Source: Gillisia sp. Hel_I_86 (GTDB taxonomy: Bacteria; Bacteroidota; Bacteroidia; Flavobacteriales; Flavobacteriaceae). Taken from it: a stretch of 64,000 nucleotides of DNA. The notes under the pieces were generated by a model. It was not told the DNA's origin, ran no database searches, and was given only the letters and a program-made list of their open reading frames with translations. Each line of letters starts with the position of its first letter. The stretch's first letter is position 1. The stretch is from positions 4,030,001 through 4,094,000 of the forward strand of contig NZ_VISE01000001.1 of assembly GCF_007827275.1 (NCBI RefSeq), written 5' to 3'. The position numbers and the translations under genes are program-made. Positions 24,469 through 48,237 of the stretch are shown here, piece by piece.

Positions 24469-24490
24469 CCATTATTAAATTCGTTTAAGG

Positions 24491-24925: not shown

Positions 24926-24944
24926 AAATTTATAAATCTAGAAC

Positions 24945-25012: not shown

Positions 25013-25043
25013 AAATGATAAAAAAGGCCTTAATATCCATTTT

Positions 25044-26852: not shown

Positions 26853-26866
26853 TATAATTTTTAAAA

Positions 26867-27880
26867 ATGCTCAATTTCCATAAAGAACATAAAAACTTAG
26901 TGCTCACAGCCCTTATAATATTTGTGGCCTTAAGTATTCTTGTAGCAATAGTACCCGCTTTTCAAATGCAGGCTACGGTGCCCATACCTTCTCAAGAACC
27001 ATTGACACCCCAAGAAAAAAAAGGACTGCGGGTGTATGTTTCAGAAAATTGTGCTGCCTGCCATACACAACAGGTCCGTGGTATAGCGATGGATGATATG
27101 TGGGGCGACAGGCCTTCCCTCCCTTCAGATTATTTTTACAGTAAACAACGTTTGGATGTATGGAGACAATCCCCTTCCCTTTTGGGCAGTGAGCGCACAG
27201 GTCCCGATTTAACCAATATTGGTGCAAGGCAACCTAGTGAGGATTGGCATTTAATGCATTTATATAATCCTCGTTCGGTAGTTTCAGAATCTATAATGCC
27301 ATCCTATTCCTGGCTGTTCAAAGAAATGGATAGTACGGCAGTTACCCAAGATGATGTGATAATCCCTATCCCAAAAGAATTTTATAATAAGCCCGGTAAA
27401 AAAGTTGTGGCGACCCAAGAAGCTTTGCAATTGGTAGCCTATTTAAAATCATTAAAACAAACCAAATTGCCCGATGGAAGTGCCCCATTATTTATTCCGG
27501 CTTTAGAGAAAATTCAAACAGGAAATACGGAAGGCAGCAATAACAATGCTGGCCTTAGCGGTGAAAAATTATATAATACCAGCTGTGTTGCCTGCCATCA
27601 GGCAAATGGAAAAGGAATTCCAGGGGCCTTTCCTTCTCTGGTTGGAAGCGGATTTGTAAATGATGAAAATCCTGAAATGCTTATTAAAATTATCCTCCAG
27701 GGATATGATGCAAGAAGTGAATTTGGAGTGATGCCCCCTTTTGCCGATCAACTTTCCGATGCCGAAATCGCGGCCATTGCAACCCACGAGCGGACTAGCT
27801 GGGGTAATGATGCTCCTGCTGTTAAAGAAGAAGATGTGAAGAAAATAAGGGACTACATCAATAATGAATTAAACCAATAA
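26867..27880 (+). CDS. Membrane di-heme cytochrome c, CcoO-like domain fused to CcoP-like domain
   Basis: A 337-residue protein. One N-terminal helix (LVLTALIIFVALSILVAIV) anchors two periplasmic c-heme domains. The first, with CAACHTQQVR, resembles CcoO (GSERTGPDLTNIG, HLMHLYNPRSVV, and an axial-Met candidate IMPSYSWL). The second, with CVACHQANGKG and GVMPPFADQLSD, resembles a CcoP cytochrome domain. In ordinary cbb3 enzymes these are separate subunits, so this is a compressed electron-entry subunit. It starts 14 bp after the catalytic subunit and should pass electrons to it. Both CXXCH motifs are intact. Confidence 0.9.
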   Translation: MLNFHKEHKNLVLTALIIFVALSILVAIVPAFQMQATVPIPSQEPLTPQEKKGLRVYVSENCAACHTQQVRGIAMDDMWGDRPSLPSDYFYSKQRLDVWRQSPSLLGSERTGPDLTNIGARQPSEDWHLMHLYNPRSVVSESIMPSYSWLFKEMDSTAVTQDDVIIPIPKEFYNKPGKKVVATQEALQLVAYLKSLKQTKLPDGSAPLFIPALEKIQTGNTEGSNNNAGLSGEKLYNTSCVACHQANGKGIPGAFPSLVGSGFVNDENPEMLIKIILQGYDARSEFGVMPPFADQLSDAEIAAIATHERTSWGNDAPAVKEEDVKKIRDYINNELNQ

Positions 27881-27885
27881 AAAAA

Positions 27886-28155
27886 ATGAAAAAGATCACA
27901 ATCCTATTAACAGCAGTCTTTTTATTGAGTTTCGATTTTGCCATTGCTTGTGAGCTTTGTAAAAAAAATCAGCCCAAAGGCTTTGAGAATATTACCCATG
28001 GTGCCGGCCCATCAGGAACATTGGATTATATAATCATTTGGTCTGCAATTATCATTGTGGGGATTACCTTGTTTCTAAGCCTCAAATATCTCATAAAACC
28101 AAAAGAGAACAATCTGGGGCATATTAAAAACATTGTGAAAAACGAAGGATTTTAA
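27886..28155 (+). CDS. Small exported membrane protein with CxxC motif, oxidase operon
   Basis: An 89-residue protein. A signal-type helix (ILLTAVFLLSFDFAIA) is followed by CELCKKNQPKGF, a CxxC not followed by His, and then one C-terminal transmembrane helix (IIIWSAIIIVGITLFLSL). It is not CcoQ-like by sequence but has the size of a small oxidase subunit. The CxxC could bind copper or a cluster, or act in assembly, but nothing proves it. It lies 5 bp after the di-heme cytochrome and 2 bp before the next gene, so it belongs to the operon. Confidence 0.8.
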   Translation: MKKITILLTAVFLLSFDFAIACELCKKNQPKGFENITHGAGPSGTLDYIIIWSAIIIVGITLFLSLKYLIKPKENNLGHIKNIVKNEGF

Positions 28156-28157
28156 AG

Positions 28158-28580
28158 ATGGAAGACAATAGGATCATAAAAGTATTTTTGGATGATGACC
28201 CAAAACCTTTTGCGGCTTTTGCACCACCGGTGAAAATTGTATTTGACAGCACAAAAATACCCGATGGCAAGCATACATTAAAAATCGTGGCCAAATCCTC
28301 CAACGGGGTTGAGGGGGTTCGGGAAATCCCTTTTGTAGTGCGAAATGGCCCGGCAATATCTGTAGTGGGCTTAAAAGAGAATGAAATAATAGACACTCAA
28401 ATCCCCATTACCATTAATGCCTATGGGAGCGAGACCAACGATTTTTTTGTGATTAGGGGCTCTGAAACACCAAAAGCAATTCCTGCTTGGGTGTGGGCAT
28501 TACTTATCATATTTGTAGCTTTCGGAGTATTCTATATAATCATGTATTGGAGCCCGGAACTCTATAAATCATTTTTTTAG
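28158..28580 (+). CDS. C-terminally anchored Ig-like protein, oxidase operon
   Basis: A 140-residue protein. Residues 1-110 read as a beta-sandwich (KIVFDSTKIPDGKHTLKIVA, GVREIPFVVRNGP), and a C-terminal helix (AWVWALLIIFVAFGVFYIIM) anchors it; no signal peptide is visible, so the tail may direct insertion. It carries no heme or metal motif. It is the last gene of the oxidase operon, two bases after the CxxC protein, and is likely an accessory or assembly subunit. The family is not recognised. Confidence 0.75.
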   Translation: MEDNRIIKVFLDDDPKPFAAFAPPVKIVFDSTKIPDGKHTLKIVAKSSNGVEGVREIPFVVRNGPAISVVGLKENEIIDTQIPITINAYGSETNDFFVIRGSETPKAIPAWVWALLIIFVAFGVFYIIMYWSPELYKSFF

Positions 28581-28663
28581 CTGTTATTGACCCTCATGGC
28601 TAATCGAAAATCTTGAGCAAGTCTCAAAAGACACCTCTGAATAGGAAATAAAATTAAAGATTT

Positions 28664-29053
28664 ATGCAGAAAGAAATTTTAAATATTAACGATATTAAAC
28701 AACTGGTAGATGCCTTCTATGCCAAAGTACAGCAAGATGAGCTGCTAGCAGACATTTTTAATAACGTGATCCAAGATAATTGGCCAAAACATTTGGAGAA
28801 AATGTACAGTTTCTGGCAGACGGTTCTTTTAGAAGAACATACTTATTATGGCGCTCCTTTTATGCCTCACATGAACTTGCCTGTGAGCAAAAAACATTTT
28901 GACAGGTGGTTGGAATTATTTTATGAAACCCTGGATGAGCTATTTGAGGGGGAAAAAGCCGAAGAAGCCCGATGGCGCGCAAATAAAATGGCAGAGATGT
29001 TTCAGCTTAAAATTGCGCATTATCAAAAAACCAATTCCAAACCTTTGATATAA
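28664..29053 (+). CDS. Group III truncated hemoglobin
   Basis: A 129-residue globin. Visible family marks are the helix B/E region VDAFYAKVQQDELLADIFN, WPKHLEKMYSFWQTVLL, and the proximal-His helix PVSKKHFDRWLELFYETLD. Group III truncated globins bind O2, NO and peroxide; in Campylobacter they protect against nitrosative stress. Its place beside the NO reductase and oxidase genes supports NO dioxygenation or ligand buffering in the cytoplasm. Length is normal. No own operator of the ric type was seen, so regulation may come from read-through. Confidence 0.93.
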   Translation: MQKEILNINDIKQLVDAFYAKVQQDELLADIFNNVIQDNWPKHLEKMYSFWQTVLLEEHTYYGAPFMPHMNLPVSKKHFDRWLELFYETLDELFEGEKAEEARWRANKMAEMFQLKIAHYQKTNSKPLI

Positions 29054-30921: not shown

Positions 30922-31323
30922 TCAGTGATGTTCTTGATATTTTACATACCGTTTTATCATATCCTCCTCTAACCCTACTGTGCTCACAAAATAGCCTCTG
31001 GACTAAAAATGATTGCCCCACTAGGGCTTTTGTTTCAAACTTGGATAAGTTTTGAAAAGTTTTATTGCAATCTTTCCTTTCAAAAACCCCATGTATTCCG
31101 ATATTGAAACTTTTGGAGGAACCGAACAAACTAGATGAACGTCGTCTTTTTGCATATTCATTTCTAACACCATTACATCTTTCCATGTACTAATTACTTG
31201 CAAATCATGCTCAACTAATGATTGGACCATGCCTTCAAGTATCTGAAAGCTATACTTGGGTGTGACCACCATGTGGTAGTCACATTTGTAATACATATGT
31301 GTTAATTTTCTATATTTGCTCAT
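30922..31323 (-). pseudogene. IS200/IS605-type Y1 transposase, inactivated
   Basis: The frame begins MSKYRKLTHMYYKCDYHMVV at 31323 and runs through FLKGKIAIKLFKTYPSLKQKP to a TAG. In the same frame it resumes WGNHF, a second TAG, then SRGYFVSTVGLEEDMIKRYV and a normal stop at 30922. Two nonsense codons thus break it; the first may replace a Tyr codon and the second a Trp. The HUH-type site has also changed: the family reads DHVHL but this copy reads DDVHL, losing one metal-binding His. Imperfect hairpins of the type CCACCGTCAAAGACGCTGG lie near both ends (about 30862 and 31390), as in IS200 elements. It is a fossil. Confidence 0.85.
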
Positions 31324-31551
31324 CTTAAAAAGTTTTAGATGGGCAAACCTAAAAAATGGCAAAGCCTTTATAACATGGCCACCGTCAAAGACGCTGGTTT
31401 TTCAATGATAAGTAAAGAACATTTTCAGTGAATTTATCACAGGGTTCTATTTATCGTCCTTCGGAAGGAAAAATTAAAACAATAAATATGAATAAATTTT
31501 AATCCAGATTTGATAAATTCCAATTTATCTCTTAATTTTAGTTTTTTCAAA

Positions 31552-31673: not shown

Positions 31674-32027
31674 ATGTGGCACTATCTACTCCTGTTCTTT
31701 ATGCTGCTCTTTACCGCTGGTTTTGCGGGTTGTTTGTATTTAGTTAAAAAATCCACGGGAAAAACCCTGGATGAACCGGGAAAAGACGTTCCTGCCGAAA
31801 GCGGGCACTTGGCGCCCAAACCTGCCTGGGGCCGCTACCATATCCACTATTACGGCTACGCGCTCATGTTCCTGGCCTTTGATATGGAGATGGCCTATAT
31901 GTACCCTTGGGCAGTAGTTTATAAAGAACTCGGCTTAACGGCCCTTTTGGATATGGGAGTGTTCCTGCTCATCCTCTTTTTGGGGTTGCTTTATACATGG
32001 AGCCAGGGAGGCTTAAAAAGACAATAA
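31674..32027 (+). CDS. nuoA: NuoA-like subunit of an unorthodox complex-I-like complex
   Basis: A 117-residue membrane protein with three helices. The NuoA landmark FLAFDMEMAYMYPWAVV matches the acidic FxxFDxE..F..PWA block of canonical NuoA (compare [15 protein letters not shown] at 57.3 kb). The loop PAWGRYHIHYYGYALM corresponds to the canonical [13 protein letters not shown]. It opens the operon and its TAA overlaps the next ATG (TAATG at 32025). It should help anchor the peripheral B-D subunit to the membrane arm. Its intact acidic pair suggests the fold is kept although its partner has lost its redox sites. Confidence 0.88.
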   Translation: MWHYLLLFFMLLFTAGFAGCLYLVKKSTGKTLDEPGKDVPAESGHLAPKPAWGRYHIHYYGYALMFLAFDMEMAYMYPWAVVYKELGLTALLDMGVFLLILFLGLLYTWSQGGLKRQ

Positions 32028-34153
32028 TGGTAAAACTTGGCACATATTCGGCAAGAAATGGGAAAGCGGGCTTTTTCGGTTCTTCTACGTTTAAACTGCA
32101 AAAAGTATTCCCTGTTCCAGGGATAGAAGTTTTGCTGAAAAAGGGTTTTGATCCTTTCCAACCTAATATCGAGATCGTGGATACCCCCAGGCACGCCAAT
32201 GTATTACTAATGTGCGGACCACTAACCGAAACTGCTGAAAAAGCTGCGACAGTGGTCTTTGCTCAAATGCCCCGTCCACGGATGCTGGTTTCCCTGGATA
32301 TGGAAAAAACCCATTTTCTCCCTAAACCAGATGCAGCAATCAATACTGAAGATTTAAAAAATTTAGCCAAAGCATTACCTGCTGCCGTTATTTATGCTGA
32401 AAACGCCACTGCCTTTGAACCTGCTTTTTTAATTGAAGCATTGTCCGAAGATGAAGGAAAGGGCGGTCACCACCACCACGGCTCCCATGAACACCACGAA
32501 GAACAGCACGGGCACCACCATGGGGATGGCCATCACAAAAACAAAGCGAATCACGGGCATGAACATGAAAACCCAGAAGATCGGCAAGGTCATCAGGAAC
32601 ATGAAGGTCATCACGGCCACGAAGCCCACCACGATCATAAAGAACAAAAGCATAAAGATCAAGGGCAGGACCATGGGGAGCACCATCCTGGTTCGCATGA
32701 ACACCACGAAGATGAAGGAAACGGCGGCCGCCACCATAGGGATGGTGGCCATCACGAAAACAAAGCACATTACGGGCATGAACATGAAAACCCAGAAGAT
32801 CGGCAAGGTCATCAGGGACATGAAGGTCATCACGGCCACGAGGCCCACCACGATCATAAAGAACAAAAGCATAAAGATCAAGGGCAGGACCATGGGGAGC
32901 ACCACCATGGTTCGCATGAACACCACGGAGATGAAGGAAAGGGCGGCCACCACCACTCCCATGAACACCACGGGCACCACCATAGGGATCGTGGCCATCA
33001 CGAAAACAAAGCGCATCCCGGGCATGAACATGAAGCCCACCACGATCATAAAGAACATGAGGAGCATGCGCATAGCGGTCATCCCCATAAAGCTATCGAG
33101 CATGACCACGGCAGTGGTCACGACCACGAGGGGGACGATCACGGGGGTGGGGGTTTCATGTCCATGGTAATGATGACCAAAGATCAGCCCCGCGGGACCG
33201 ATGGCCTGCAAATGGACCGTAACCAAGTACGTTTTGGGCCCTTCCATCCCGGATTGCCCGGGGGCCTGCAGGTAAAAATGACCCTAGCCGGCGATACAGT
33301 AGCGCAAGCCGAAGTGGAAAATGGCCTTTTTGATACACATGCATTTCAGGATTTTCCGGAAGAGCCCAAAGATTTTCCCGGTTGGCTGGCTGGATTTGAT
33401 CCTTTTCAAACCGAAACTTATCGCCAACTCGCATCCCTGACCCTGGCCCGCGCTACCGGGGGTAACTTTCCCTTAGATATCAAAAAACTGGAGCAGGAGC
33501 GTGTACAAAACCTGCTGTTGTGGCTTTTGAAATTTCAGAAAATCCTGGGCGATCGGGAAATGGAACGTCAGGTATTTCAGCTTTGGCAGGATTTTCAGCA
33601 AAAAAGACTTTCCCCCGAAAAATTTGCCTCTTTTAGGAAAAAAATAGAACATCGCTGGTACCTTAAGCCCCGCTTGCAGTATCTGGGAAGGCTTCCGGAT
33701 AAAATACTGCAGCATTTCAGCGGGCCTTTGGCCAAAGCGGCGGGCAATGCTTCAGATGCACGGGAAAGTTTGAACGAATATGGAAATTTTAAAAGTTTCC
33801 AGTTGAAAGAAAACAACGTCTGGGGCTGGCTATTAACAAGACTGGAAGAAATACACCAAAGTCTCCAAATTTTAGTGGAAGTCACTTCTACAGAAAAAAA
33901 AGATGAACTGAACGAAATGCATAAACTGAATTTTTCCGGCATACAAAATACGTGTGTAAAGCTGGAAACTTCTCGTGGCACAATGGTTTTAAAACTGGAA
34001 ATGAAAGACGGGAAAATCAAAAAAATGGATTTAAAACAACCTTCCATAGCCCTAGCTGAGGCGGTACCGCAGCTTGTAAAAAATCATGAACTGGCCGATG
34101 CCCTCACCGCCATTGCGGCACTGGACATTTCGCCTTGGGAAATTAGCGTATAA
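32027..34153 (+). CDS. NuoB-like / His-rich repeat linker / NuoD-like fusion protein
   Basis: 708 residues from the ATG at 32027, which overlaps the nuoA-like stop. Residues 1-140 are NuoB-like (IVDTPRHANVLLMCGPLT, then PRPRMLVSLDM) but lack the CC, GACA and GCPP cysteines that bind cluster N2; the whole protein has only two Cys that I find. Residues ~145-378 are His/Glu/Gly/Asp-rich, built of two ~72-residue repeats and part of a third. Residues ~379-708 are NuoD-like only at the start (GPFHPGLPGGLQ against canonical [12 protein letters not shown]; the quinone-ligand His is a Pro) and then diverge. It seems unable to carry electrons; the linker may bind Zn, Ni, Co or Cu. Role unknown. Confidence 0.8.
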   Translation: MVKLGTYSARNGKAGFFGSSTFKLQKVFPVPGIEVLLKKGFDPFQPNIEIVDTPRHANVLLMCGPLTETAEKAATVVFAQMPRPRMLVSLDMEKTHFLPKPDAAINTEDLKNLAKALPAAVIYAENATAFEPAFLIEALSEDEGKGGHHHHGSHEHHEEQHGHHHGDGHHKNKANHGHEHENPEDRQGHQEHEGHHGHEAHHDHKEQKHKDQGQDHGEHHPGSHEHHEDEGNGGRHHRDGGHHENKAHYGHEHENPEDRQGHQGHEGHHGHEAHHDHKEQKHKDQGQDHGEHHHGSHEHHGDEGKGGHHHSHEHHGHHHRDRGHHENKAHPGHEHEAHHDHKEHEEHAHSGHPHKAIEHDHGSGHDHEGDDHGGGGFMSMVMMTKDQPRGTDGLQMDRNQVRFGPFHPGLPGGLQVKMTLAGDTVAQAEVENGLFDTHAFQDFPEEPKDFPGWLAGFDPFQTETYRQLASLTLARATGGNFPLDIKKLEQERVQNLLLWLLKFQKILGDREMERQVFQLWQDFQQKRLSPEKFASFRKKIEHRWYLKPRLQYLGRLPDKILQHFSGPLAKAAGNASDARESLNEYGNFKSFQLKENNVWGWLLTRLEEIHQSLQILVEVTSTEKKDELNEMHKLNFSGIQNTCVKLETSRGTMVLKLEMKDGKIKKMDLKQPSIALAEAVPQLVKNHELADALTAIAALDISPWEISV
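32486..33060 (+). repeat. Tandem repeats encoding the His-rich linker
   Basis: Two in-frame units, 32486-32695 (210 bp) and 32696-32914 (219 bp), each starting CATGAACACCACGA, and a partial third unit from 32915 to about 33060. They are strongly alike, for example in GGTCATCACGGCCACGA. The repeats encode HEHH, GHHG and HEHEN-type motifs. High similarity implies recent duplication and probable length variation. Confidence 0.85.
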
Positions 34154-35043
34154 TGATCTGGACTATCACTACATTAATTACTTTGGCAAGCCTTTACGGC
34201 ATCGCGGTTTTGGAACGCTGGTCGGTTTACCATAATTGGGATTTTACCTACCCTTTTAAAGCTTTTTCGGGCATGTTTGTACAGGAAGATATCATCCCGC
34301 GCAAACACGACCCCACTTTTTTTGAAACTGCACCTATCTTGTTTATCGGCGCCGCATTCCTAACTATAGGGGTTTTGCCTTTTGCCGCCGGTACCGTTCT
34401 GGCAGGGATCGCTACGGGTGCACTTTTTGTGAACGCTGCCCTGGCCTACATCATGATCGCACTGCTGATGGCCGGCTGGGCGCCAAACGGTGTTTATGCC
34501 ATGGTGGGGGGCTGGCGGTTTCTGGGGCAGCTCATTGCCTATGCCATGCCTATCGTGATGACGATCTCCGCCACAGTAATGCGCGCAGAATCCATGGATA
34601 TGCTCAAAATAGTAGAATCACAGACCGGGTTATGGAACATCATCTATCAGCCGTTGGGTTTTATCCTGTTTTATGCTGCGTCCATGGCGCTGGCGTTTTT
34701 ACCGCCTTTTGATTTGCCGCAGGGCGGGGGCGAACTCGCAGGTGGTGTTTTTGCCGAATATACCGGGAAGCGCCTGTTGCTTTTCCGCTTGGGTCGGTTA
34801 GTGCTTATTTTTAGCCTTTCCTTGGCGATCACCAATTTTTATCTGGGCGGCTGGCACGGGCCACTCCTGCCAGGCATTATCTGGACGTTTCTTAAAACCA
34901 TACTGGTGGCAGCTTCCTTGTTTTGGGCAGGAGGTTTTATGCCCCGGCTACGGCATGACCATACGCTGGAATGGGGCTGGAAATACGCCACCCCGGCAGC
35001 CCTACTCAATATATTATGGGTTGGGGTGCTGTTACTGTTGTGA
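34153..35043 (+). CDS. nuoH: NuoH-like subunit, quinone-site motifs degraded
   Basis: A 296-residue protein with about eight helices. It starts at an ATG overlapping the previous stop (TAATG). NuoH identity rests on PRLRHDHTLEWGWKYATP, matching canonical [18 protein letters not shown], and on FDLP...GELAGG..AEYTGKR against [20 protein letters not shown]. The N-terminal quinone-chamber motif [14 protein letters not shown] of the canonical copy is missing (here NWDFTYPFKAFSGMF), and PEAE is PQGG. Loss of these residues argues against quinone reduction. It still should link the peripheral protein to the pumps. Confidence 0.85.
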   Translation: MIWTITTLITLASLYGIAVLERWSVYHNWDFTYPFKAFSGMFVQEDIIPRKHDPTFFETAPILFIGAAFLTIGVLPFAAGTVLAGIATGALFVNAALAYIMIALLMAGWAPNGVYAMVGGWRFLGQLIAYAMPIVMTISATVMRAESMDMLKIVESQTGLWNIIYQPLGFILFYAASMALAFLPPFDLPQGGGELAGGVFAEYTGKRLLLFRLGRLVLIFSLSLAITNFYLGGWHGPLLPGIIWTFLKTILVAASLFWAGGFMPRLRHDHTLEWGWKYATPAALLNILWVGVLLLL

Positions 35044-35213
35044 AAAGAGGAAATGGAAAAAAAGAAGAAAAAGGAGAAATGAATATGAGCAGAAAGCCGA
35101 AAAAATGAACTGGGAAAAAGGAAGAGTACGGTTTCCCACTTAACCAATTAACGAATTGCAGGTCACGAATCACAAATTAACCTAATTGCCAACAGAGATA
35201 AAAAAAGGAATAT

Positions 35214-35741
35214 ATGGTCATCACAAAAATCATTTTTTTAACAGTCTTTGGACTTGCCGCTATCTGGTTTGGCTGGCGGGTCTTCATGACCAGCAGTATG
35301 GTGCGTTCGGCCTTGTCGTTGCTGGCTTGCCTAACTATTTTGGGATTGATGTTTTTTGTAATGCAGGCAGAGTTCCTTGCGGTGCTGCAGGTAATGATGA
35401 TGGCCACCGAAATGGCCATCATGGCCATTTTTATGATGATGTTCATGATGGATCCCGGTGGCATGGGCGCGATGGAAATGACCCACCAAAAAAAACTATC
35501 TATCGTCCTGGGAACGGTTGCAGGTGCTGGCATCATCTTCGCCATAGGTTTTGCCAACTGGGGCGAAATAGCAAAGGTTGTATCTGATGCCGAACAACAA
35601 AACCGTGACTTGGGCAGGGAGGTGCTAAAACGTTCCATGATGATCTTTGAAACCGCGGGCACCTCAATCCTCGTCGCGATGATCGTGGCGGCCGCTATTG
35701 CTCTACCTTTTGAAAATAAACATGAAAACCAACAAAAATGA
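35214..35741 (+). CDS. nuoJ: NuoJ-like subunit
   Basis: A 175-residue membrane protein of five helices. The NuoJ core is readable: SALSLLACLTILGLMFFVMQAEFLAVLQVMMMATEMAIMAIFMMMFM in canonical register, with the Met-rich helix 3 unusually full of Met. An A-rich AAAGGA site lies just before the ATG at 35214. A 170-bp Lys/Glu-rich spacer separates it from the NuoH-like gene; no gene is supported there. The stop overlaps the nuoK ATG (ATGATAG at 35738). In complex I, NuoJ contributes the pi-bulge helix of the proton path. Confidence 0.88.
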   Translation: MVITKIIFLTVFGLAAIWFGWRVFMTSSMVRSALSLLACLTILGLMFFVMQAEFLAVLQVMMMATEMAIMAIFMMMFMMDPGGMGAMEMTHQKKLSIVLGTVAGAGIIFAIGFANWGEIAKVVSDAEQQNRDLGREVLKRSMMIFETAGTSILVAMIVAAAIALPFENKHENQQK

Positions 35742-36046
35742 TAGAATTGACCATAGTATTAGTAACCGGGGCAGTACTTTTTGGTATAGGTTTGTACGGA
35801 GCGTTAAGCCAGACCAACCTGGTGATGATCATGATGGGCATAGAGCTAATACTGGGTGCCGCAATGCTGAACCTAGTGGCTTTCTGGCGCTACCTGCACC
35901 CCGAAACCTATTCCCTCCAGATGTTTGTGCTGGTAGGGATGACTGTCATGGCCCTGGAAGCCGCGGTGGGCTTTGCAATAGGAACCCAGCGCTTCCGCAC
36001 CAAAGGCTCGGTCGAAATGGAAGAAGCGAGCGATATGAAAGGGTGA
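35738..36046 (+). CDS. nuoK: NuoK-like subunit
   Basis: A 102-residue, three-helix subunit homologous to NuoK and to Mrp antiporter subunit C. Both membrane Glu residues of the E-channel are kept: MGIELILGAAMLN (first) and MTVMALEAAVGFA (second). Overlap of 4 bp with nuoJ shows tight translational coupling. The retention of both acids, in contrast to the losses in the B-D and H subunits, argues that the membrane arm still moves protons or cations. Confidence 0.93.
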   Translation: MIELTIVLVTGAVLFGIGLYGALSQTNLVMIMMGIELILGAAMLNLVAFWRYLHPETYSLQMFVLVGMTVMALEAAVGFAIGTQRFRTKGSVEMEEASDMKG

Positions 36047-36087
36047 CTTCGAGAGCCTCAGTCACCTTAAGTGGGAAATTTTGAATA

Positions 36088-37986
36088 TTGAATTTTGAAT
36101 CTGAAACCTTGAACCTTATACTCATAATCTTGTTCCCATTTCTCGCTGCCCTTGCCGGTTACTTTTTCCGGAAAGGGAACGCATGGCCGCACCTTTTGGG
36201 GGCGGGTGGGTCTTTGTTCTCGGCTTTGCTGTTGTGGATAAAGCTTGGGAAAAATGGAACCGCACGGTTGGAAGTGATGCGGTATGGAGAATTCAGCAGC
36301 TTTCTTTTTGCCGATTTCACTTCGGCTCTACTGGTCACAGTGGTGGGGGTCGTAAGCTTCTTTATTTTTATTTATGCCAAAGGCTATATGCGGCACGATA
36401 CCGGAAAAACCTGGTTCTGGCCGGCCATATCGCTGTTCCTGATGGCCATGCAGCTGTTGGTGCTGGCCGGGGACTGGTTTTTGTTTATCACCGGTTGGGA
36501 AATTATGGGGCTGGCATCCTTTCTGCTTATCGGCACCTGGCACCATAAAAAAGAAGCGCGGCAAGGTGCCACCAAAGCCTTTTTACTCACCCGTTTCAGC
36601 GATATCGGGCTATATGCGGGGGCATTTCTGGTAATAATCACATTTGGGGATTTAGCTATTCCAGCAAGTGGGGAAATGAAGGTCCCACTGGCGGCTTCGC
36701 TCTGGCTCCTGCTCGCGGTAATGGGCAAATCGGCACAGGTGCCTTTTCAGGACTGGCTTTCCGGGGCCATGGCCGGCCCTACCCCGGTATCGGCTTTGCT
36801 GCACTCGGCCACGATGGTGGGCGCGGGTGCCCTGCTGCTTATCAGGATTTTTCCGGTCTTGCCAGAGCAAGGGCTGGATGTCATTGCCATAATTGGCGTC
36901 CTTACCATAGTTTTAACCGGGATTACCGCCATCAGTTCCCGCGACATCAAGCAAATGCTGGCGGCTTCCACTTCCAGCCAGTTCGGGTTTATCCTGCTGG
37001 CGGTGGGCACAGGTTTTCCCGGGGCGGCACTGGCCCATTGGCTGGCCCATGCCTTTATGAAGAGTTCGCTTTTCCTGGGTGCCGGGATTTTCCAGCACGC
37101 CCGGGGGGATACCTTATATGAAAAATTAAAAGGTTCAGGAAAACACCTAAAGATCACCTTTTTTGGCTTTGCCATTGCGGGGTTTGCCCTGGCCGGCATC
37201 CCACCGCTTATTGGGTATTACTCCAAAGATGCGCTCCTCGCGGCTTATTTTAAAGACGGTAACGGATTTTATATGACCGCAGCTTTGATCGGGGTGTTGT
37301 TTACGGCAACGTATGTGGCCAAAGCCCTCAACCGCTTATGGAATGGGAAAACCCAAAAACCTGAAATCAAAGGCTTGTCCCTACTGCGTAGCGGACTGCT
37401 GGGACTGGTCTTTATCGTGCTGTTGGGTGGCTTCTTTTTGGAAAAATTGGTACTTTCTGGAGATTATATCTTCCCAAAAGACAGCCTGAGCAAGTACCTG
37501 GGACTGGGATTGACGTTTTTGGGCCTGCTCATGGGATGGGTGTACAGGGAAAAGTGGCTTTCGGAAAGGGTCAAAAAAAGCATTGGCGAAAATTACCCCG
37601 TTTTCGGCGGTTATCAGAAATTAATCGTGCAACCGGTACTTTGGTTGGCTGATGTATTGAGCGATTTCGACCGGAAAATTTCAGTTTTTGTTCAAAACAT
37701 AGGTCGTGCGGGACTTTTCTTCAGCAGAAAAAATGATATCCTAGATAAATGGGTAAACCGGGCGACCTGGGCTATTGGCATTTCCTGGCTGATTTTCAGC
37801 AAAATCAATAAAATTTTTGATGACAAGATATTAAAAGGGGTTGAGAACATAGGCTACTGGACTCTAAAAACCGGTGCCAGGGGCAAAAAATGGCAATCCG
37901 GGATGGTGCACAAGGAGCTGGCCATAAGCGTTGTGGCCCTGCTGATCCTGATCTTTATATTAACCGCAAGCATTTTCACATTATGA
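36088..37986 (+). CDS. nuoL: NuoL-like antiporter subunit
   Basis: A 632-residue antiporter-type subunit with about 15 helices and a long C-terminal lateral region. Key residues are present: the TM5 Glu in GWEIMGLASFLLIG, the TM7 Lys in MGKSAQVPFQDWL, TM8 SALLHSATMVGAGA, and the TM12 Lys in GYYSKDALLAAYF. No ATG fits: translation starts at TTG 36088 or TTG 36109, where the family's first helix (LILIILFPFLAALAG) begins. The sequence just upstream is a simple TTGAATTTTGAATCTGAA-type spacer. The stop overlaps the nuoM start. The protein should pump protons or Na+. Confidence 0.92.
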   Translation: MNFESETLNLILIILFPFLAALAGYFFRKGNAWPHLLGAGGSLFSALLLWIKLGKNGTARLEVMRYGEFSSFLFADFTSALLVTVVGVVSFFIFIYAKGYMRHDTGKTWFWPAISLFLMAMQLLVLAGDWFLFITGWEIMGLASFLLIGTWHHKKEARQGATKAFLLTRFSDIGLYAGAFLVIITFGDLAIPASGEMKVPLAASLWLLLAVMGKSAQVPFQDWLSGAMAGPTPVSALLHSATMVGAGALLLIRIFPVLPEQGLDVIAIIGVLTIVLTGITAISSRDIKQMLAASTSSQFGFILLAVGTGFPGAALAHWLAHAFMKSSLFLGAGIFQHARGDTLYEKLKGSGKHLKITFFGFAIAGFALAGIPPLIGYYSKDALLAAYFKDGNGFYMTAALIGVLFTATYVAKALNRLWNGKTQKPEIKGLSLLRSGLLGLVFIVLLGGFFLEKLVLSGDYIFPKDSLSKYLGLGLTFLGLLMGWVYREKWLSERVKKSIGENYPVFGGYQKLIVQPVLWLADVLSDFDRKISVFVQNIGRAGLFFSRKNDILDKWVNRATWAIGISWLIFSKINKIFDDKILKGVENIGYWTLKTGARGKKWQSGMVHKELAISVVALLILIFILTASIFTL

Positions 37987-39455
37987 TGACAAACTTCCCT
38001 TTACTGAGTATCACGCTATTTTTGCCGCTGCTTGGCGCGATTTTGCTGATGGCTTTTAAAACCGGCCGGAAAGGCACCAACATTATCGCTGTGGGAACGG
38101 CCTTTCTTACTTTGCTAGGAACACTGGGTATGGCCTGGCGCGGGCTGGGGACCGGGTTTTCCCAGGTAGAGGAAGTGGCCTGGATCCCGCAACTGGATGT
38201 GGCTTACCGCGTGGGAATAGATGGAATAAGTTTTACGCTGGTACTGCTTACGGGCATCTTATTTTTGAGCAGCATTGTTTTTTCAACAAAGATCAAGCAG
38301 AAACCCCGCGCATATATGGCACTGTTCCTCATGCTGGAAACCGCATGCCTGGGGGTATTTATGTCGCTGGATCTGTTGCTGTTCTATGTGTTTTTTGAAA
38401 TTACGCTGGTGGGGATGTATTTTATTATCGTCGGCTGGGGCCACGAAAACGCCAAAAAAGCCGGGGTCATGTTTTTCATTTATACGCTGGTAGGTAGTTT
38501 GCTGCTGCTATTGGCCTTTCTGGCGCTTTACCTCAATGCCGATCCGCGAACTTTTGATATGCGTGCGCTTATCGAAAATCCGCCGGTTACCGGCGGGATA
38601 GCGGTCTTTACCTTTTGGGCCTTGTTCCTGGCCTTTGCGATCAAAACCCCGCTTTTTCCATTCCATTCCTGGTTGCCTTTGGCGCACACCGAAGCCCCGG
38701 CCGCCGGTAGTGCCATACTAGCCGGGATTTTATTGAAGTTGGGCGCTTATGGATTTATCCGTTTTATGCTGCAAATGACGCCGGAAATGTTCCGCGAATT
38801 TGCCTGGGTGGTGATGGCCGTGGCGGTTTTCTCGGTGGTGTACGGGGCGCTGGTAGCCATGGCGCAAACCGATCTCAAGCGGATGGTGGCCTATACCAGT
38901 ATCAACCATATGGGCTACCTCGTATTTGGGGTGGCAGTAGCAGCTGTGGGCAGCGAAAGCGCGGGCATAAGGGGACTGGACGGGGCCACTTTGCAAATGT
39001 TTAGCCACGGCATCGTGACCGGCTTGTTGTTCCTGCTCATTGGAGCGATCCAAGACCGGGTGACCACCCGCGAGATACCAGTGCTAAAAGGGTTGTTAAA
39101 AAGCTATCCCTTGCTGAGCGGCTTTTTTGTGGTGGCAGCCTTTGCTTCGTTGGGCCTGCCGGGGCTGGCGCATTTCCCGGCAGAATTCCAGATTTTCCTG
39201 GGCGGCTTTGAAGATTATCCCTGGGCGGTGGTGATCATGCTGCTGGGGCTGGTGATTATTTCCGCTACGTACGTTAGGTCCATTCAACGCAGTTTTATGG
39301 GCGCGGCAGACCGCAATATCCTGAAAATGGTAAAAGATCTAAATGCCCGGGAACTCCTGGCTTTTGTGCCGCTTTTGATCTTAATTATTTTAACGGGAGT
39401 TTATCCCGACTGGATTTTAAAATATATTCATGAGACGGTAAAACTCCTAATGTAG
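37983..39455 (+). CDS. nuoM: NuoM-like antiporter subunit
   Basis: 490 residues from the ATG at 37983, which overlaps the nuoL stop in ATGATGA; the frame is open further upstream inside nuoL but those codons are not the start. Proton-path residues are intact: TM5 Glu in YVFFEITLVGMYF, TM7 Lys in FAIKTPLFPFHSWLP, TM8 Lys in ILLKLGAYGFIRF and TM12 Glu in FPAEFQIFLGGF. It is longer-conserved than the N-like subunit. Base composition is GC-rich (36 of 60 bases at 38581-38640). Confidence 0.93.
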   Translation: MMTNFPLLSITLFLPLLGAILLMAFKTGRKGTNIIAVGTAFLTLLGTLGMAWRGLGTGFSQVEEVAWIPQLDVAYRVGIDGISFTLVLLTGILFLSSIVFSTKIKQKPRAYMALFLMLETACLGVFMSLDLLLFYVFFEITLVGMYFIIVGWGHENAKKAGVMFFIYTLVGSLLLLLAFLALYLNADPRTFDMRALIENPPVTGGIAVFTFWALFLAFAIKTPLFPFHSWLPLAHTEAPAAGSAILAGILLKLGAYGFIRFMLQMTPEMFREFAWVVMAVAVFSVVYGALVAMAQTDLKRMVAYTSINHMGYLVFGVAVAAVGSESAGIRGLDGATLQMFSHGIVTGLLFLLIGAIQDRVTTREIPVLKGLLKSYPLLSGFFVVAAFASLGLPGLAHFPAEFQIFLGGFEDYPWAVVIMLLGLVIISATYVRSIQRSFMGAADRNILKMVKDLNARELLAFVPLLILIILTGVYPDWILKYIHETVKLLM

Positions 39456-39609
39456 GAGCCCAATAATGAAATGTAATTAATCAGTATGTTGATTCTGCCG
39501 ATTATTGCAAGGATTGTTTCACGCAAAGCACGCAGAATATTATTTAAAACAATATTGATCAGCATGTTAGGCTCAATAAAAAATTAAAACGTTAAACTGA
39601 TTACTTTCA

Positions 39610-40965
39610 ATGGAACAGGATTTACTCAATATATTGCCCCAGCTTATCGTTTTGGCGACCAGTATGCTGGCACTATGTTTTGAAATGCTGCGCAGGGCCA
39701 CCGGCAGCTTATGGGTGCTTGTAATAGGGCTGGCCGCCGCGGCAGGCGTGGCCATTTCTAAGCTGGGGACGGTAACCACGGCTTTTTCCGAAACTTTTCG
39801 GGTGGATTTTCTGAGTCTGTGGGCCGCGATTATCCTGGGCGGGGCGGGAATACTTTCCGCTTTGTTGATGCGGCAGGAGCTGCGCAAGACCGGCCGGGAG
39901 GGTACACTTTCCAGCCTGGTGGGCTTTTCCACGCTGGGTTCTATGATCCTGGCCGGGGCGGGCGATATGATGTTCCTCGTTCTCGGAGTGCTCATCAGCG
40001 GACTTACCGGCTTTGGGCTGGCGGCCTACCCAAAAACCGATAAGGCCACGGAAGGAGGTATTAAATATTTCATTTATGGCTCGGTGACCGGTGCGGTAAT
40101 GCTGTTTATGCTTACCTTTTGGGCGGGAACTTCGGGCAGCACCTTACTTTCCGCACTGGGGCAGCCCGGGCTGGAACCGGTGCTGGTACTGCTTGGGTTT
40201 GCTGGGGTGCTTGCGGGATTGGGCTATTCGGCTTCCCTGTTTCCCTTTCATTTCTGGACCCCCGATGTTTTTGAAGGCGCGCCGGTCTCGGTGGCGGCTT
40301 TTGTTTCGGTGACCCCAAAAATCGGGGCCTTTTTCGCTTTGGCACAGGTGATGCGTTCCCTGCATCCTGAAGGGCTGGACTACAACCTGATCCTGGCCCT
40401 GCTTGCGGCTTTTTCCATGACCTTTGGCAATGTGGTGGCGCTTTGGCAGAAAAACGTGTTACGGCTGATGGCTTATTCTACCATTGCCCAGGCAGGTTAT
40501 TTCCTGCTCGGGGTTATTGCCATAAACGGAAGCGAGCTGGCCGTTTCTTCCCTGGTGGTTTTTAGCGTGGCCTATGCGGCGATGAACATTGGGGCTTTTG
40601 CCATTATCCAGCAGGTAGGGCCACAAATCCTGAATTTTGAAGGCCTGGCCCGTAAAAAACCTTTTATGGCCGTGGCCATGGTTGTGTTTTTGTTGTCGCT
40701 GGTAGGCCTTCCGCCGCTAGCGGGATTTGCGGGGAAATTTTTGCTCTTTGGAGCGGCTATAGATGTGGGCTATTCATGGCTGGCCATCATAGCTATTCTT
40801 AATAGCGTAATCTCCCTGGCGGTGTACCTGCGCATCATTAATCCGATGTTTTTTAAAAAGCAGCCGGTTTTTTCCTCAGAACCTTCCACCCTGCTCCGGT
40901 GGGTATTTTTAAGTAGTTTTGCGGTTACGGTTTTGGTAGGGATTGCGGTTCGGTATTTTCTTTAG
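39610..40965 (+). CDS. nuoN: NuoN-like subunit lacking the conserved pump Glu and TM7 Lys
   Basis: A 451-residue antiporter-type protein ending the operon after a 154-bp gap. NuoN identity is clear from FPFHFWTPDVFEGAPVSVAA and GFAGKFLLFGAAI. Aligned to the canonical NuoN of this window (FFVSLEILSVSLYALIAY and GIGFKLAAVPFHMW), the TM5 Glu is a Val (FLVLGVLISGLTGFGLAAY) and the TM7 Lys is a Ser (GYSASLFPFHFW). The TM8 Lys (SVTPKIGAF) and TM12 Lys (GFAGKF) remain. Loss of the first pair should abolish or alter pumping by this subunit. It may be a structural or regulatory piece. Confidence 0.9.
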   Translation: MEQDLLNILPQLIVLATSMLALCFEMLRRATGSLWVLVIGLAAAAGVAISKLGTVTTAFSETFRVDFLSLWAAIILGGAGILSALLMRQELRKTGREGTLSSLVGFSTLGSMILAGAGDMMFLVLGVLISGLTGFGLAAYPKTDKATEGGIKYFIYGSVTGAVMLFMLTFWAGTSGSTLLSALGQPGLEPVLVLLGFAGVLAGLGYSASLFPFHFWTPDVFEGAPVSVAAFVSVTPKIGAFFALAQVMRSLHPEGLDYNLILALLAAFSMTFGNVVALWQKNVLRLMAYSTIAQAGYFLLGVIAINGSELAVSSLVVFSVAYAAMNIGAFAIIQQVGPQILNFEGLARKKPFMAVAMVVFLLSLVGLPPLAGFAGKFLLFGAAIDVGYSWLAIIAILNSVISLAVYLRIINPMFFKKQPVFSSEPSTLLRWVFLSSFAVTVLVGIAVRYFL

Positions 40966-42356: not shown

Positions 42357-43799
42357 TCACCCCAGACTATTTACTATATCTACCAGCCAGCGGGGATAGA
42401 CCCCTATCCAAATCATCAATACCGTTAAAATGATCAATGCCAGGCTGCCCGCAAGAAGCGAGGAAGCCTTCGAAAACCTGGCTGTTGGAACCGTGTTTAT
42501 TTCTTGTTTCATCATCACAACAATTATCTGTAAGTAATAATATAAGCCTATAACACTTCCTATAACCAAGGTAAAGGCAAGCAACCACTTCGCTGTTCCC
42601 ACTCCTGCCGTTAAGACAAAGAATTTCCCTATAAAACCCGCAGTAATCGGGATACCTGCCAAGGAAAGCAAACTCACCGTGAATGCAGCAGCCAAAAAAG
42701 GCCTTTTCCAGAACAGGCCCCTGTAATCTTCAATATCGGTGGCTTCTTCCTGGGATTGGGATAAGAGGCTTATAATACCAAATGCCGCCAGAATTGTGAT
42801 CACATATACCGTAAGGTAAAAGGTAGCCGCCGGGGGTCCCATTTCTTTTCCAGCTATAAGGGCCACCAATAAATAACCAAAATGGGCAATAGAGGAATAG
42901 GCCAGAATACGCTTTACATTATTTTGCATCAGGGCCAGTAAATTCCCTATCAACATAGAGAGGATGGAAATGACCGTAAAGGCCCATAAGATTTTTTCAA
43001 ACCGGTAAAGGTCGGCCAGTATAAAAAAACGGAGCAATAAGGCAACTATAGAGCCCTTGGACACCGTTGCGATAAACGCACTTATGGGGGAAGAAGCGCC
43101 TTCATATACATCGGGCGTCCACATGTGGAAGGGGACAGCGGCCAGTTTGAAGCCTATACCCACTATCATAAGGGCAATACCGGCAATTAGCATCAGGTTG
43201 GAGGTGGCACTTAGGGCCGGGCTTATGCTTGCCAGGGAATGGAAGGCCATGGTGCCTGAAATAGCATAGACCAACGCCATGCCCAATAATAAAAAAGAGG
43301 AAGACATCGCTGCGAGCATCAAATATTTCAAGCCCGCCTCAATAGCTTTTGTGCGTTCCCTGTAATAGGCTATCAGCGCATATAACGAAACGCTGAGTAT
43401 TTCCAGGCTCACAAAAAATGAAATAAAATGGGTGCTGAATACCATCATCGCCGAACCCAAGGTGGCCAGCATCAGCAACAGGTAGTACTCCTCCATTCTT
43501 TTTTCCGGAAAGAAATCCCGCAAACTGAGGTAGCTGAAAATTGCCACAACAAGGGTAGCCAGCAAGATCAGGGCAAGGTAATAATATCCAAAACGATCAA
43601 TGAGGAACAGTTCCCCAATCACATGGGGTGTTTCCGGACTGGTAAAGAATACCGTGATAAGGGAAGCCGTTAATATTAGCAGGGTGGCGGCAAACGTCGT
43701 TAAATGATCTCGCTTTACTGCTACTAAAAGTAGAATAAAGAGAATCCCCCCGGCCAATATCACCACAGGTAACAAACTCATAATATCTTGTGCTGACAT
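42357..43799 (-). CDS. nuoN: Complex I subunit NuoN
   Basis: A 480-residue antiporter subunit, the last gene of the canonical operon on the minus strand. TM5 Glu (FVSLEILSVSLYALIAYY), TM7 Lys (IGFKLAAVPFHMWTPDVYEG), TM8 Lys (ATVSKGSIVALLLRFF) and TM12 Lys (GFIGKFFVLTAGV) are all kept. Length is normal. It starts 3 bp after nuoM, so translation is coupled. It pumps protons in the membrane arm. Confidence 0.96.
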   Translation of the reverse strand: MSAQDIMSLLPVVILAGGILFILLLVAVKRDHLTTFAATLLILTASLITVFFTSPETPHVIGELFLIDRFGYYYLALILLATLVVAIFSYLSLRDFFPEKRMEEYYLLLMLATLGSAMMVFSTHFISFFVSLEILSVSLYALIAYYRERTKAIEAGLKYLMLAAMSSSFLLLGMALVYAISGTMAFHSLASISPALSATSNLMLIAGIALMIVGIGFKLAAVPFHMWTPDVYEGASSPISAFIATVSKGSIVALLLRFFILADLYRFEKILWAFTVISILSMLIGNLLALMQNNVKRILAYSSIAHFGYLLVALIAGKEMGPPAATFYLTVYVITILAAFGIISLLSQSQEEATDIEDYRGLFWKRPFLAAAFTVSLLSLAGIPITAGFIGKFFVLTAGVGTAKWLLAFTLVIGSVIGLYYYLQIIVVMMKQEINTVPTARFSKASSLLAGSLALIILTVLMIWIGVYPRWLVDIVNSLG

Positions 43800-43802
43800 A
43801 TT

Positions 43803-45398
43803 TTAATCGGATTTTATAAGGTTGATTTTTTGATCCTGCCCCTTCTTTTTTAAAGCCATGGAGCTTGCAGTATGGTAAATATTGTCCCTCCCGGAGTGCC
43901 CAGCTTCCCCTTGTCCGGTATCTAAAGTATTTACTTTTTGAATAATCTTTTGCACCGGGATTTGGGATACATTAAAAACCGAAGCCGGGAACAAACCCAA
44001 CCAGATAATTACAGCGGTAAGGGAAAGCATGATGATCATCTCACGAATGCCGAGATCGGCAATTACCCAATTCTTATTTTCCTTTCCATAAAATACTTTC
44101 TGCATGATCCGTAGGGAATAAATGGTGGCAGTCACCAAGCCCACTGTTGCCAGGATGGTAAGTACTTTATGGTTTGCCAGGTAGGATCCTATTAAGATTA
44201 GGATTTCAGCGACAAAATTTCCAAGCCCCGGTAGGCCTAATGACGCCATAACAAATAGTAGTCCCATAGTACCCATTTTGGGAACTTTGCGCCATAGCCC
44301 CCCCATTTGTCTTATATCACGGGTATGGATCCGGTCGTACAAAGCCCCGGCGATAATAAACAGTGCCCCGGTACTTATGGCATGGGCTATTATTTGCATG
44401 ATCACCCCCTGCATGGCCATTTCATTAAAGGCATATACGCCCAATAAAATAAAGCCCATATGGCTTACACTTATATAGGCCACCAGGCGTTTAAGATCGG
44501 TTTGGGCGAATGCGAGTTTGGCGCCATATAGGATACTAAGCACCCCCAAAGTTATGGCCACAGGTGCCAACTGGAGGGAAGCCTGGGGGAACAAGGGCAA
44601 CACAAACCTTATAAGGCCATAGGCCCCGGTTTTCAGCAATAATCCAGCAAGGATCACACTACCCGCCGTGGGTGCCTGGGTATGTGCATCGGGCAACCAG
44701 CTATGGAGGGGAACGGTAGATAATTTTACTATAAAGGCCACCACAAAACCCAGCATTAAGAGAAAAGCTGTACCTGAAGCCATATCGGTGCCCAGCAATT
44801 GTTCGTAATCAAAGGTAAAAACCCCTGTATTTTGCCAGTGGATAAAATATAGCCCAAGAATGGAAAGGAACATAAGCAGTCCGCTGGCCTGTGTAAACAG
44901 AAAAAACTTTTTTGCCGCGTAAACCCTGTTTTCATGCCCCCATATACTGATGAGGAAATACATGGGAACCAGCATAAGTTCCCAGGAGAAATAAAACAAA
45001 AACAGGTCTAGGGAAAGAAAGACCCCTGTAATACCAGCCAAAACAAGCAACAGGTTAAAATGAAAGAAGCCTACCCTTTTGTTTATTTCTTTCCAGGAAA
45101 CCAGCACCGATATTACAGCCAAAAAAGAGGTGAGCACCAACATGAGCAGGCTCAACCCATCCATCGCCAGTTTAAACTGGATACCAAAAGCCGGGATCCA
45201 GCTACGGGTGTAACTCGTGATCCATTCTTGGTTATCGGTGCCCGGATCATGCCCAAGCCATAGCCACAGTACAATGCCCAAATATATAAGCGTACCTGCC
45301 AGACTTATAATCCGGGGCAGGATACTGTTCCACCGGCCTGCCAGCCATGCCAGCAAACCGGTTCCTATCAACAAGATGATGAGCCAAGCTAGAATCAT
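43803..45398 (-). CDS. nuoM: Complex I subunit NuoM
   Basis: A 531-residue proton-pumping subunit. TM5 Glu is in FYFSWELMLVPMYFLI, TM7 Lys in FIVKLSTVPLHSWLPDAHTQ, TM8 Lys in AGLLLKTGAYGLIRF, and TM12 Glu in FVAEILILIGSY. The C-terminal ~60 residues (from NVSQIPVQKI) are a hydrophilic tail longer than in most NuoM. The ATG overlaps the nuoL stop by 4 bp (ATGA). Confidence 0.96.
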   Translation of the reverse strand: MILAWLIILLIGTGLLAWLAGRWNSILPRIISLAGTLIYLGIVLWLWLGHDPGTDNQEWITSYTRSWIPAFGIQFKLAMDGLSLLMLVLTSFLAVISVLVSWKEINKRVGFFHFNLLLVLAGITGVFLSLDLFLFYFSWELMLVPMYFLISIWGHENRVYAAKKFFLFTQASGLLMFLSILGLYFIHWQNTGVFTFDYEQLLGTDMASGTAFLLMLGFVVAFIVKLSTVPLHSWLPDAHTQAPTAGSVILAGLLLKTGAYGLIRFVLPLFPQASLQLAPVAITLGVLSILYGAKLAFAQTDLKRLVAYISVSHMGFILLGVYAFNEMAMQGVIMQIIAHAISTGALFIIAGALYDRIHTRDIRQMGGLWRKVPKMGTMGLLFVMASLGLPGLGNFVAEILILIGSYLANHKVLTILATVGLVTATIYSLRIMQKVFYGKENKNWVIADLGIREMIIMLSLTAVIIWLGLFPASVFNVSQIPVQKIIQKVNTLDTGQGEAGHSGRDNIYHTASSMALKKKGQDQKINLIKSD

Positions 45399-47266: not shown

Positions 47267-47282
47267 TTTTTTTTCTTTTTTC

Positions 47283-47588
47283 CTATCCTTTCATACTATT
47301 GGCCTTCCCGGCATCCAGTGATCCTGCCTTTTTAAACAGTTGTATAATTAAAGCCAGCCCCACCGAAACCTCTGCTGCCGCCATGGCCAGTATAAAAACA
47401 AACATGACCTGCCCATCGGCCTGGCCCCAAGCCGCACCGGCCACTACAAATGCCACACCCGCTGCATTAAGCATGATCTCTATGGATAGCAGCATGAAAA
47501 TAACATTCCGGCGTATCAGCAAGCCCGTCAATCCGAGGCAAAATAAAATTATCGCCAACAGTAGGCCATGTTCCATGGGTACATTCAT
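47283..47588 (-). CDS. nuoK: Complex I subunit NuoK
   Basis: A 101-residue, three-helix subunit. The two E-channel Glu residues are in MLLSIEIMLNAAGVAF and MAAAEVSVGLALI. The ATG at 47588 overlaps the nuoJ stop by 4 bp, which favours it over a Met five codons in. Confidence 0.95.
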   Translation of the reverse strand: MNVPMEHGLLLAIILFCLGLTGLLIRRNVIFMLLSIEIMLNAAGVAFVVAGAAWGQADGQVMFVFILAMAAAEVSVGLALIIQLFKKAGSLDAGKANSMKG

Positions 47589-48118: not shown

Positions 48119-48179
48119 CTCGTTAATTAATATATTTCACTTTTATTTTTAGTTCCTGAGCTTTTCGCCGAAGGACGGT

Positions 48180-48232: not shown

Positions 48233-48237
48233 GTTAC

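Follow-up and report, generated by a model that had tools for sequence, protein, structure and literature searches.

The 64,000-nucleotide stretch of DNA analyzed here (the window; positions 4030001-4094000 of the 4.245 Mb single-contig genome of Gillisia sp. Hel_I_86) carries, at 31674-40965 on the + strand, an eight-gene operon encoding relatives of the complex I (NDH-1) subunits A, B and D (as a B-D fusion), H, J, K, L, M and N. The operon is certainly a member of the complex I superfamily. It is not complex I in the redox sense, and its product would act like a cation/proton antiporter. A metal role of the operon family is very likely, and we consider it rather probable that the product is a Cu+/Ag+ exporter built on the complex I membrane arm and driven by the proton motive force. 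The features of the operon are listed below.

31674..32027, + strand: NuoA-like subunit (PF00507, 2.3e-25)
31878-31901, + strand: FDMEMAYM motif of NuoA, with three family-fixed Met
32027-34153, + strand: B-D fusion, whole gene
32027..32461, + strand: NuoB-like domain of the fusion, N2 cysteines absent (hhalign, AF2/Foldseek, family Cys count)
32462..33154, + strand: linker of the B-D fusion, rich in His (81 in the 250 residues preceding D) and a putative metal sponge
33155..34153, + strand: NuoD-like domain of the fusion (PF00346, 3.9e-10 for the whole B-D protein), beginning with an invariant FMSM motif; quinone-site His and Tyr lost
34153..35043, + strand: NuoH-like subunit (PF00146, 2.8e-60), quinone-entry region shortened, M132 and M136 fixed
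35214..35741, + strand: NuoJ-like subunit (PF00499, 1.2e-18), 21 Met in 175 residues
35394..35486, + strand: methionine ladder at NuoJ residues 61-91, in the third hydrophobic stretch and the loop after it
35738..36046, + strand: NuoK-like subunit (PF00420, 4.2e-17), E36 and E74 kept, M30 and M71 fixed
36088..37986, + strand: NuoL-like antiporter subunit, key Glu/Lys/His kept (NF005141, 3.3e-102, under its curated cut-off)
about 37983..39455, + strand: NuoM-like antiporter subunit, key residues kept (TIGR01972, 5e-148, above its cut-off); the list of open reading frames (ORFs) gives an alternative start further upstream at 37890
39610..40965, + strand: NuoN-like antiporter subunit, Glu of transmembrane helix (TMH) 5 lost family-wide, TMH7 Lys replaced by Ser in the window (TIGR01770, 2.5e-80, under its cut-off)

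Gene overlaps were read directly as TAATG at A/BD and BD/H and as ATGA at J/K and L/M; gaps of 170 and 154 bases separate H from J and M from N. Gene calls and a Pfam scan revealed none of the genes C, E, F, G and I in the operon. The membrane genes scored above the Pfam cut-offs of complex I families and mostly under the stricter NCBIfam ones. The gene content, the overlaps and the missing genes agree with an initial annotation of this DNA.

Fixed methionines and the B-D linker

Relatives were collected by scanning genome contigs with a D-domain alignment, one genome per species over 84,980 species, which yielded 103 encoding stretches. The best 80 of these 103, the window, eight plasmid loci and three further loci made up a set of 92 loci, 74 of them non-redundant. 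All 53 non-redundant loci with all eight genes showed the order A-BD-H-J-K-L-M-N on a single strand; the largest inter-gene gap was at most 200 bases in 46 of the 53 and exceeded 500 in six, two of which had a shortened B-D ORF. The remaining 21 of the 74 loci were without one or more genes, always on the side where the sequence ends within 500 bases.

The NuoJ-like subunit carries a ladder of methionines, and its motif MMM..EM..MA.FM.M.MMDPGG...M.M.HQ was exact in 70 of 71 relatives; in the only exception (L069) Asn stands for Asp and the Met are retained. The motif was found in none of 50 canonical NuoJ sequences, all of which have Tyr at residue 63. Among the 71 relatives, 57 NuoJ columns were conserved at 95% or more, 15 of them Met, compared with eight columns, one of them Met, in the 50 canonical sequences, the canonical sets being more diverse than the family and hence having fewer conserved columns overall. 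Over residues 55-92, family members carry 11-13 Met and canonical NuoJ sequences 1-6 (median 2). On a helical projection, M63, M67, M70, M74 and M78 lie on one face at angles of 0, 40, 340, 20 and 60 degrees, that is, within an 80-degree sector.

Fixed methionines were also observed in other subunits. NuoA M71, M73 and M76 were present in 64/64 relatives, at positions that in canonical NuoA are usually Leu, Val, Ile or Ala; NuoH M132 and M136 were present in 71/71, NuoK M30 and M71 in 70/70, and M26, M121 and M164 are family-fixed in NuoN. NuoH M106 and M143 are weak markers, canonical NuoH often having Met there. The mean Met fraction (family versus canonical) was strongly raised in J (0.093/0.036) and K (0.085/0.048), slightly raised in A (0.049/0.039) and not raised in H (0.036/0.039), L (0.028/0.043), M (0.037/0.043) and N (0.033/0.043), the canonical sets for L, M and N comprising only 3, 4 and 4 sequences. 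Overall composition was therefore rejected as the cause of the Met columns. The A, H, J and K subunits form the junction at which quinone chemistry drives complex I, and a membrane relay made of methionines alone is suited to Cu+ and Ag+, not to Zn, Ni or Co.

The linker of the B-D fusion looks, from its motifs, like a metal sponge. In three plasmid relatives it matched the heavy-metal-binding domain (HMBD) family PF19335 (8e-23 to 3e-41). Linkers were counted in the 64 fusions whose ORFs do not run into the start of the locus or contig: by pattern, 44 have one to seven copies of a CPMHP-type HMBD motif, a further 18 lack it but have 8 or more His among the 250 residues preceding D, and the two with neither are L060, whose ORF looks shortened, and L069, whose linker is short. 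The number of HMBD-type repeats varies from 1 to 5 among eight plasmid copies. A second His-rich insert was seen by alignment inside the D domain of some Balneolota fusions (L021, L023). The initial annotation overlooked the His-rich linker and the fixed Met in J, A, H and K, which would point to soft metals. The two sequence features expected of a Cu+/Ag+ transporter, metal-binding domains and a transmembrane Met relay, are thus both predicted for this operon.

Lost redox residues and the retained ion path

The B domain is faint by sequence (NCBIfam E about 0.01). It matched the canonical NuoB profile in hhalign (95.6% probability, E 1.2e-8, 53 columns), and its AlphaFold2 (AF2) model, with a predicted local distance difference test score (pLDDT) of 80.5, gave three Foldseek matches below 1e-3 in PDB, the best being modest (1.4e-4, TM about 0.45). 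The three came from structures of membrane-bound hydrogenase (MBH), formate hydrogenlyase (FHL) and complex I, and the two best were MBH and FHL chains, whose subunit identity we presume. Profile and model together indicate that the B domain is real, though faint in sequence. The AF2 model of the D domain (pLDDT 89.6) best matched NuoD of complex I (7aqr_D, E 1.6e-14, TM 0.78).

Redox residues were examined across the family, taking the quinone-site, N2 and proton-path residues to have the roles presumed for them in complex I. In all 60 family B domains examined, Cys is missing from each of the four canonical N2 positions, three of which are mostly alignment gaps, and neither the B nor the D domains contain a conserved Cys column. 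At the quinone site of D, the position of E. coli His~224 is Pro in 67/67 domains, and Tyr~273 is kept in 0/67. NuoH R46, D63, K66, E157, E216 and E241 (E. coli numbers) are each kept in 0/71 relatives, and D213 in 70 of 71. The initial annotation had noted the absence of N2 cysteines and of the H and D quinone motifs in the window and had excluded an NADH:quinone oxidoreductase; these losses now hold family-wide, and fusion homologues with Fe-S cysteines, a check it had proposed, were not found among the 60 B domains.

The ion path, by contrast with the quinone site, appears mostly kept in K, L and M. NuoK E36 is present in 70/70 and E72 in 67/70 relatives (E. coli numbers), NuoL E144, K229, H254 and K399 in 65/65, and NuoM E144, K234, K265 and E407 in 60/60, the canonical sequences compared for L, M and N numbering only 3, 4 and 4. 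This extends the earlier observation on K, L and M, to which a correction must be added for NuoN, whose proton-path residues are partly altered.

Family, second type and neighboring genes

Hosts of the family include Bacteroidota, Balneolota, Alpha- and Gammaproteobacteria, Rubrobacteraceae, Chloroflexota and Trueperaceae. In a maximum-likelihood tree of 110 NuoH rows, a single branch (100/100) separated all 70 family rows from the rest, and the family stem measured 3.18 changes per column; the row most similar to that of the window was from Salegentibacter echinorum (69% identical). The family was present in 4 of 395 genomes drawn from the phylum of the window's host, its own included and one weak 44-residue match left out, and in 1 of 199 drawn from the host's family, which was its own genome. 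The family is widespread but rare near this host. The operon genes are under purifying selection, with ratios of nonsynonymous to synonymous change (dN/dS) of 0.04-0.23 when H and J were compared between the members of eight pairs of relatives; a single NuoL value of 0.69 belongs to a pair with one L ORF truncated at the contig end.

A second, diverged type with the order A-hypothetical-H-J-K-L-M-N was found on plasmids of Arthrobacter FB24, Gordonia, Rhodococcus, Pseudonocardia and Halomonas. The D profile matched the hypothetical protein in 5/5 (1e-10 to 5e-26, E for nine sequences) and the B profile in 4/5 (4e-4 to 2e-10), the short Pseudonocardia ORF being the one not matched. The linker is His/Met-rich in Arthrobacter, Gordonia and Rhodococcus, and the ladder region of NuoJ in the second type still has 11-12 Met. 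On the Arthrobacter, Halomonas and Pseudonocardia plasmids, copper-type genes are located no more than 6 kb away. On one Methylobacterium and one Rhodopseudomonas plasmid, A is followed by H without an intervening gene; on these, and on an M. aquaticum plasmid of which NuoJ alone was examined, a His/Met-rich stretch of NuoJ directly follows a partial ladder. Two hypothetical proteins upstream on the Methylobacterium plasmid gave no match to the B or D profile, the rest of these plasmids having been hardly searched. Such an apparent shift of the metal-binding segment from B-D to NuoJ suggests a joint function of these two proteins.

Neighboring genes were searched with 17 seed proteins from five plasmid loci, mostly of copper type and also including cation diffusion facilitator, ArsR, MerR and DUF305 proteins. 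A metal-resistance-type gene was found near 31 of the 53 loci with at least 5 kb of flank, one of which (L038) was counted on DUF305 alone, and near 26 of 48 when the seed loci were removed. P-type ATPase or heavy-metal-associated (HMA) matches occurred near 17 of the 48 non-seed loci, some being short HMA proteins or pieces only, and 12 had an ORF of at least 400 aa; about 1.1 P-type ATPase matches would be expected by chance, a rough figure from 260 matches in about 127 Mb of 30 host genomes. What we take to be Cu/Ag signature motifs of P-type ATPases were present in 13 of 17 neighboring ATPase ORFs of at least 400 aa. In Pfam scans of 113 upstream and 109 downstream neighbors, HMA was the most frequent domain upstream (9) and shared the top rank downstream (4). 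As examples, the Sulfitobacter SK025 locus is accompanied by CusA/CzcA, CopB, a multicopper oxidase and a cupredoxin, and the Rubrobacter locus by a heavy-metal P-ATPase, a metal-sensitive regulator, a copper-binding protein and DUF305.

Acquisition of the operon fits its GC content (0.496, versus 0.414 for the window) and an IS200-like transposase remnant about 310 bases upstream (31021-31362, - strand, PF01797, 4.7e-19). Further insertion sequence remnants, IS1595 and IS4/5-like, lie at 59826-62272. Next to the operon, at 42357-57513 on the - strand, is a canonical Nuo operon with a CD fusion; it may have been acquired too, since its NuoH groups with those of E. coli and one other host (100/99) and its GC content is 0.469. 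A third complex I-like set (NuoH, J, D, B) is located in the same genome at G000:C1:2727612-2731677. On the other side of the operon, 19909-29053 is a nitrosative-stress or denitrification cluster with ScdA/hemerythrin, a NorB-type NO reductase, an Rrf2 regulator, a cbb3-like oxidase and a bacterial globin.

Candidate mechanism and alternatives

We infer the assembly of the operon product, the identity of its metal, transport, direction and driving ion from sequence, and propose the following scheme. Cytoplasmic Cu+ or Ag+ would be caught by the HMBD/His/Met-rich B-D linker, sitting in the place of the former redox arm, and passed on to the Met where A, H, J and K meet, in what used to be the quinone and E-channel region. 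The metal would then cross the membrane along the predicted NuoJ Met ladder, and this step would be coupled through K and the L/M antiporter modules to an opposite flow of H+ (or Na+). The direction is most likely export. Beside P1B ATPases and resistance-nodulation-division (RND) pumps, such a device could represent a third class of bacterial copper/silver pump, an ion-gradient-driven rebuilt complex I in which the linker replaces the electron input, the NuoJ ladder carries the metal and several antiporter modules possibly power one metal ion; we give this wider claim slightly better than even chances.

Several observations weigh against the Cu+/Ag+ exporter. The seed search found no metal-resistance-type gene within 10 kb of the window operon, nor near 22 of the 53 loci, the window included. 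No copper-type gene is annotated within about 9-10 kb of the second-type operons of Gordonia, Rhodococcus and Pseudarthrobacter. Copper genes travel on shared mobile elements, so the linkage may be hitch-hiking. The Halomonas B-D linker is short and Met-rich, not His-rich, and the Methylobacterium-type ladder is partial, its 6 Met in the region equaling the highest canonical count. In NuoN, the TMH5 Glu is Leu or Val in 60/60 relatives, and the TMH7 Lys is kept in 49/60 and is Ser in the window; with the Glu lost throughout and the Lys sometimes, the NuoN module may not pump.

The operon was compared with several known systems. Complex I has homologous A, B, D, H, J, K, L, M and N subunits and shares the L/M antiporter residues and K glutamates. 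The operon differs from it in having no C, E, F, G or I, no N2 cysteines and no quinone-site residues, in joining B and D through a metal-binding linker, in the Met ladder of J and in a NuoH that forms a separate clade. Mrp likewise has related L-, M/N-, K- and J-like membrane parts and no redox chemistry, but moves Na+/K+. Excerpts of PMC7419157 propose a cation path through its NuoJ-like part, with Na+ passing the position aligned with NuoJ Y59, where Mrp has the carboxylate E706; this position is Met in 71/71 operon relatives. According to the same excerpts Mrp has no NuoH-like subunit, whereas the operon family has H, A and B-D. For the group 4 systems, which are membrane-bound hydrogenases, FHL and the energy-converting hydrogenase-related complex (Ehr), the likeness lies in the B-like domain, whose two best structural matches are chains of MBH and FHL structures. 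The operon differs from them in having no conserved Cys in B or D and a full complex I-type A, J, K, L, M, N arm; Ehr presumably lacks the NiFe Cys as well, so that only the B-domain result counts there. The copper exporters CusA and CopA use methionine relays for Cu+/Ag+ and resemble the operon in these relays, in HMBD-type domains and in their shared neighborhood, but have unrelated folds and an RND or ATP mechanism.

The initial annotation had suggested metal or CO2 handling or a DAB-like role. The metal part gains from the linker motifs and the Met ladder. The CO2/DAB part was set aside, as neighbors and domains give no pointer to it; no DabA (DUF2309), which accompanies the NuoL-like DabB, is among the operon genes, though no dedicated search for it was made.

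Among other explanations, a metal-sensing or metal-gated ion machine, in which metal bound to B-D and J would turn H+ or Na+ flow on and off without itself being carried, is unlikely. The metal-binding parts do occupy the place of the former redox switch and the L and M proton paths are kept, but Met at i, +4, +7, +11 and +15 of a membrane helix exceed a sensor's need, and many loci are located among exporter genes. A metal importer, or a delivery device for copper enzymes, would fit the proximity of the window operon to the cbb3-like oxidase and NO reductase, and sequence cannot tell direction; the nearby metal genes of the family are, however, mostly for detoxification (P1B ATPase, CusA, CopB, multicopper oxidase, CsoR), and we hold import or delivery to be a shade less probable than gating.

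The layout of the operon is already in print as a partial-nuo proton pump of marine actinomycetes. Excerpts of PMC3314556, PMC6676996, PMC8622039 and PMC6002675 assign the partial nuoAHJKLMN operons of Salinispora, Streptomyces and Kocuria to marine adaptation or osmotic functions, and we found no metal reading in these parts of the literature on them. The order printed in the excerpt of PMC6676996 (nuoA, hypothetical, nuoH, J, K, L, M, N) is that of the FB24, Gordonia and Rhodococcus plasmids, and in the FB24 and Gordonia copies of this layout the NuoJ ladder is present and the B-D protein is diverged, its linker being His/Met-rich. Likeness to the Salinispora, Streptomyces and Kocuria copies was judged by layout only, and the Salinispora operon is assigned to the present family by gene order only. 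The role these papers propose, pumping of protons or sodium as an adaptation to marine or osmotic conditions, would suit the many family hosts with marine names or sources. It leaves the metal motifs, the Met ladder and the copper neighbors unexplained, and the published carriers include SM254 from copper-rich mine fluid (PMC6676996, excerpt) and the 'copper miner' strain K. marina SO9-6 (PMC6002675, excerpt); we judge it improbable. For another carrier, the Sulfitobacter OXR-159 plasmid (L029), the description in PMC12016528 mentions copper resistance and neither nuo nor NADH.

A redox enzyme with an unseen electron donor, e.g. a Cu(I):quinone oxidoreductase, would account for the retained B and D folds. 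It was rejected as very improbable, the N2 Cys, the quinone His and Tyr and the NuoH quinone-entry residues being lost and the operon having no NuoC or NuoI. The initial annotation had asked whether electron-carrying partners elsewhere might complete the complex. A separate, canonical-looking NuoH was found in 28 of 30 host genomes searched, and a borrowed NADH module is possible in these 28. The exceptions were Salegentibacter echinorum and one metagenome-assembled genome, which has a second, canonical-looking NuoA. The draft genome of Salegentibacter gave no NuoB and no NuoD match at E 1e-3 (NuoE, F, G and I were not searched), a threshold at which its own B-D is also missed, whereas matches to the canonical copies of the window's genome reach E-values as low as 1e-114; this host therefore appears to offer no complex I Q module for the operon to borrow.

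A decaying duplicate or mobile-element passenger, for which the IS200-like remnant, a patchy distribution and a few interrupted-looking copies (L045, L099 and L215, a Pseudarthrobacter plasmid locus where an IS3 element interrupts the B-D gene and the rest of the operon is present) might speak, is hardly credible given the low dN/dS, motifs invariant across phyla and the same gene order in 53/53 loci, and degeneration was rejected, as the initial annotation had also held.

If the Cu+/Ag+ exporter is real, the complex I chassis would work without redox chemistry and yet keep its NuoH/B/D end, which would bear on how complex I couples the quinone-site end to the antiporter modules. Copper/silver handling would gain a new class, partly plasmid-borne and present in several phyla, and the published marine-adaptation operon would receive a different explanation.

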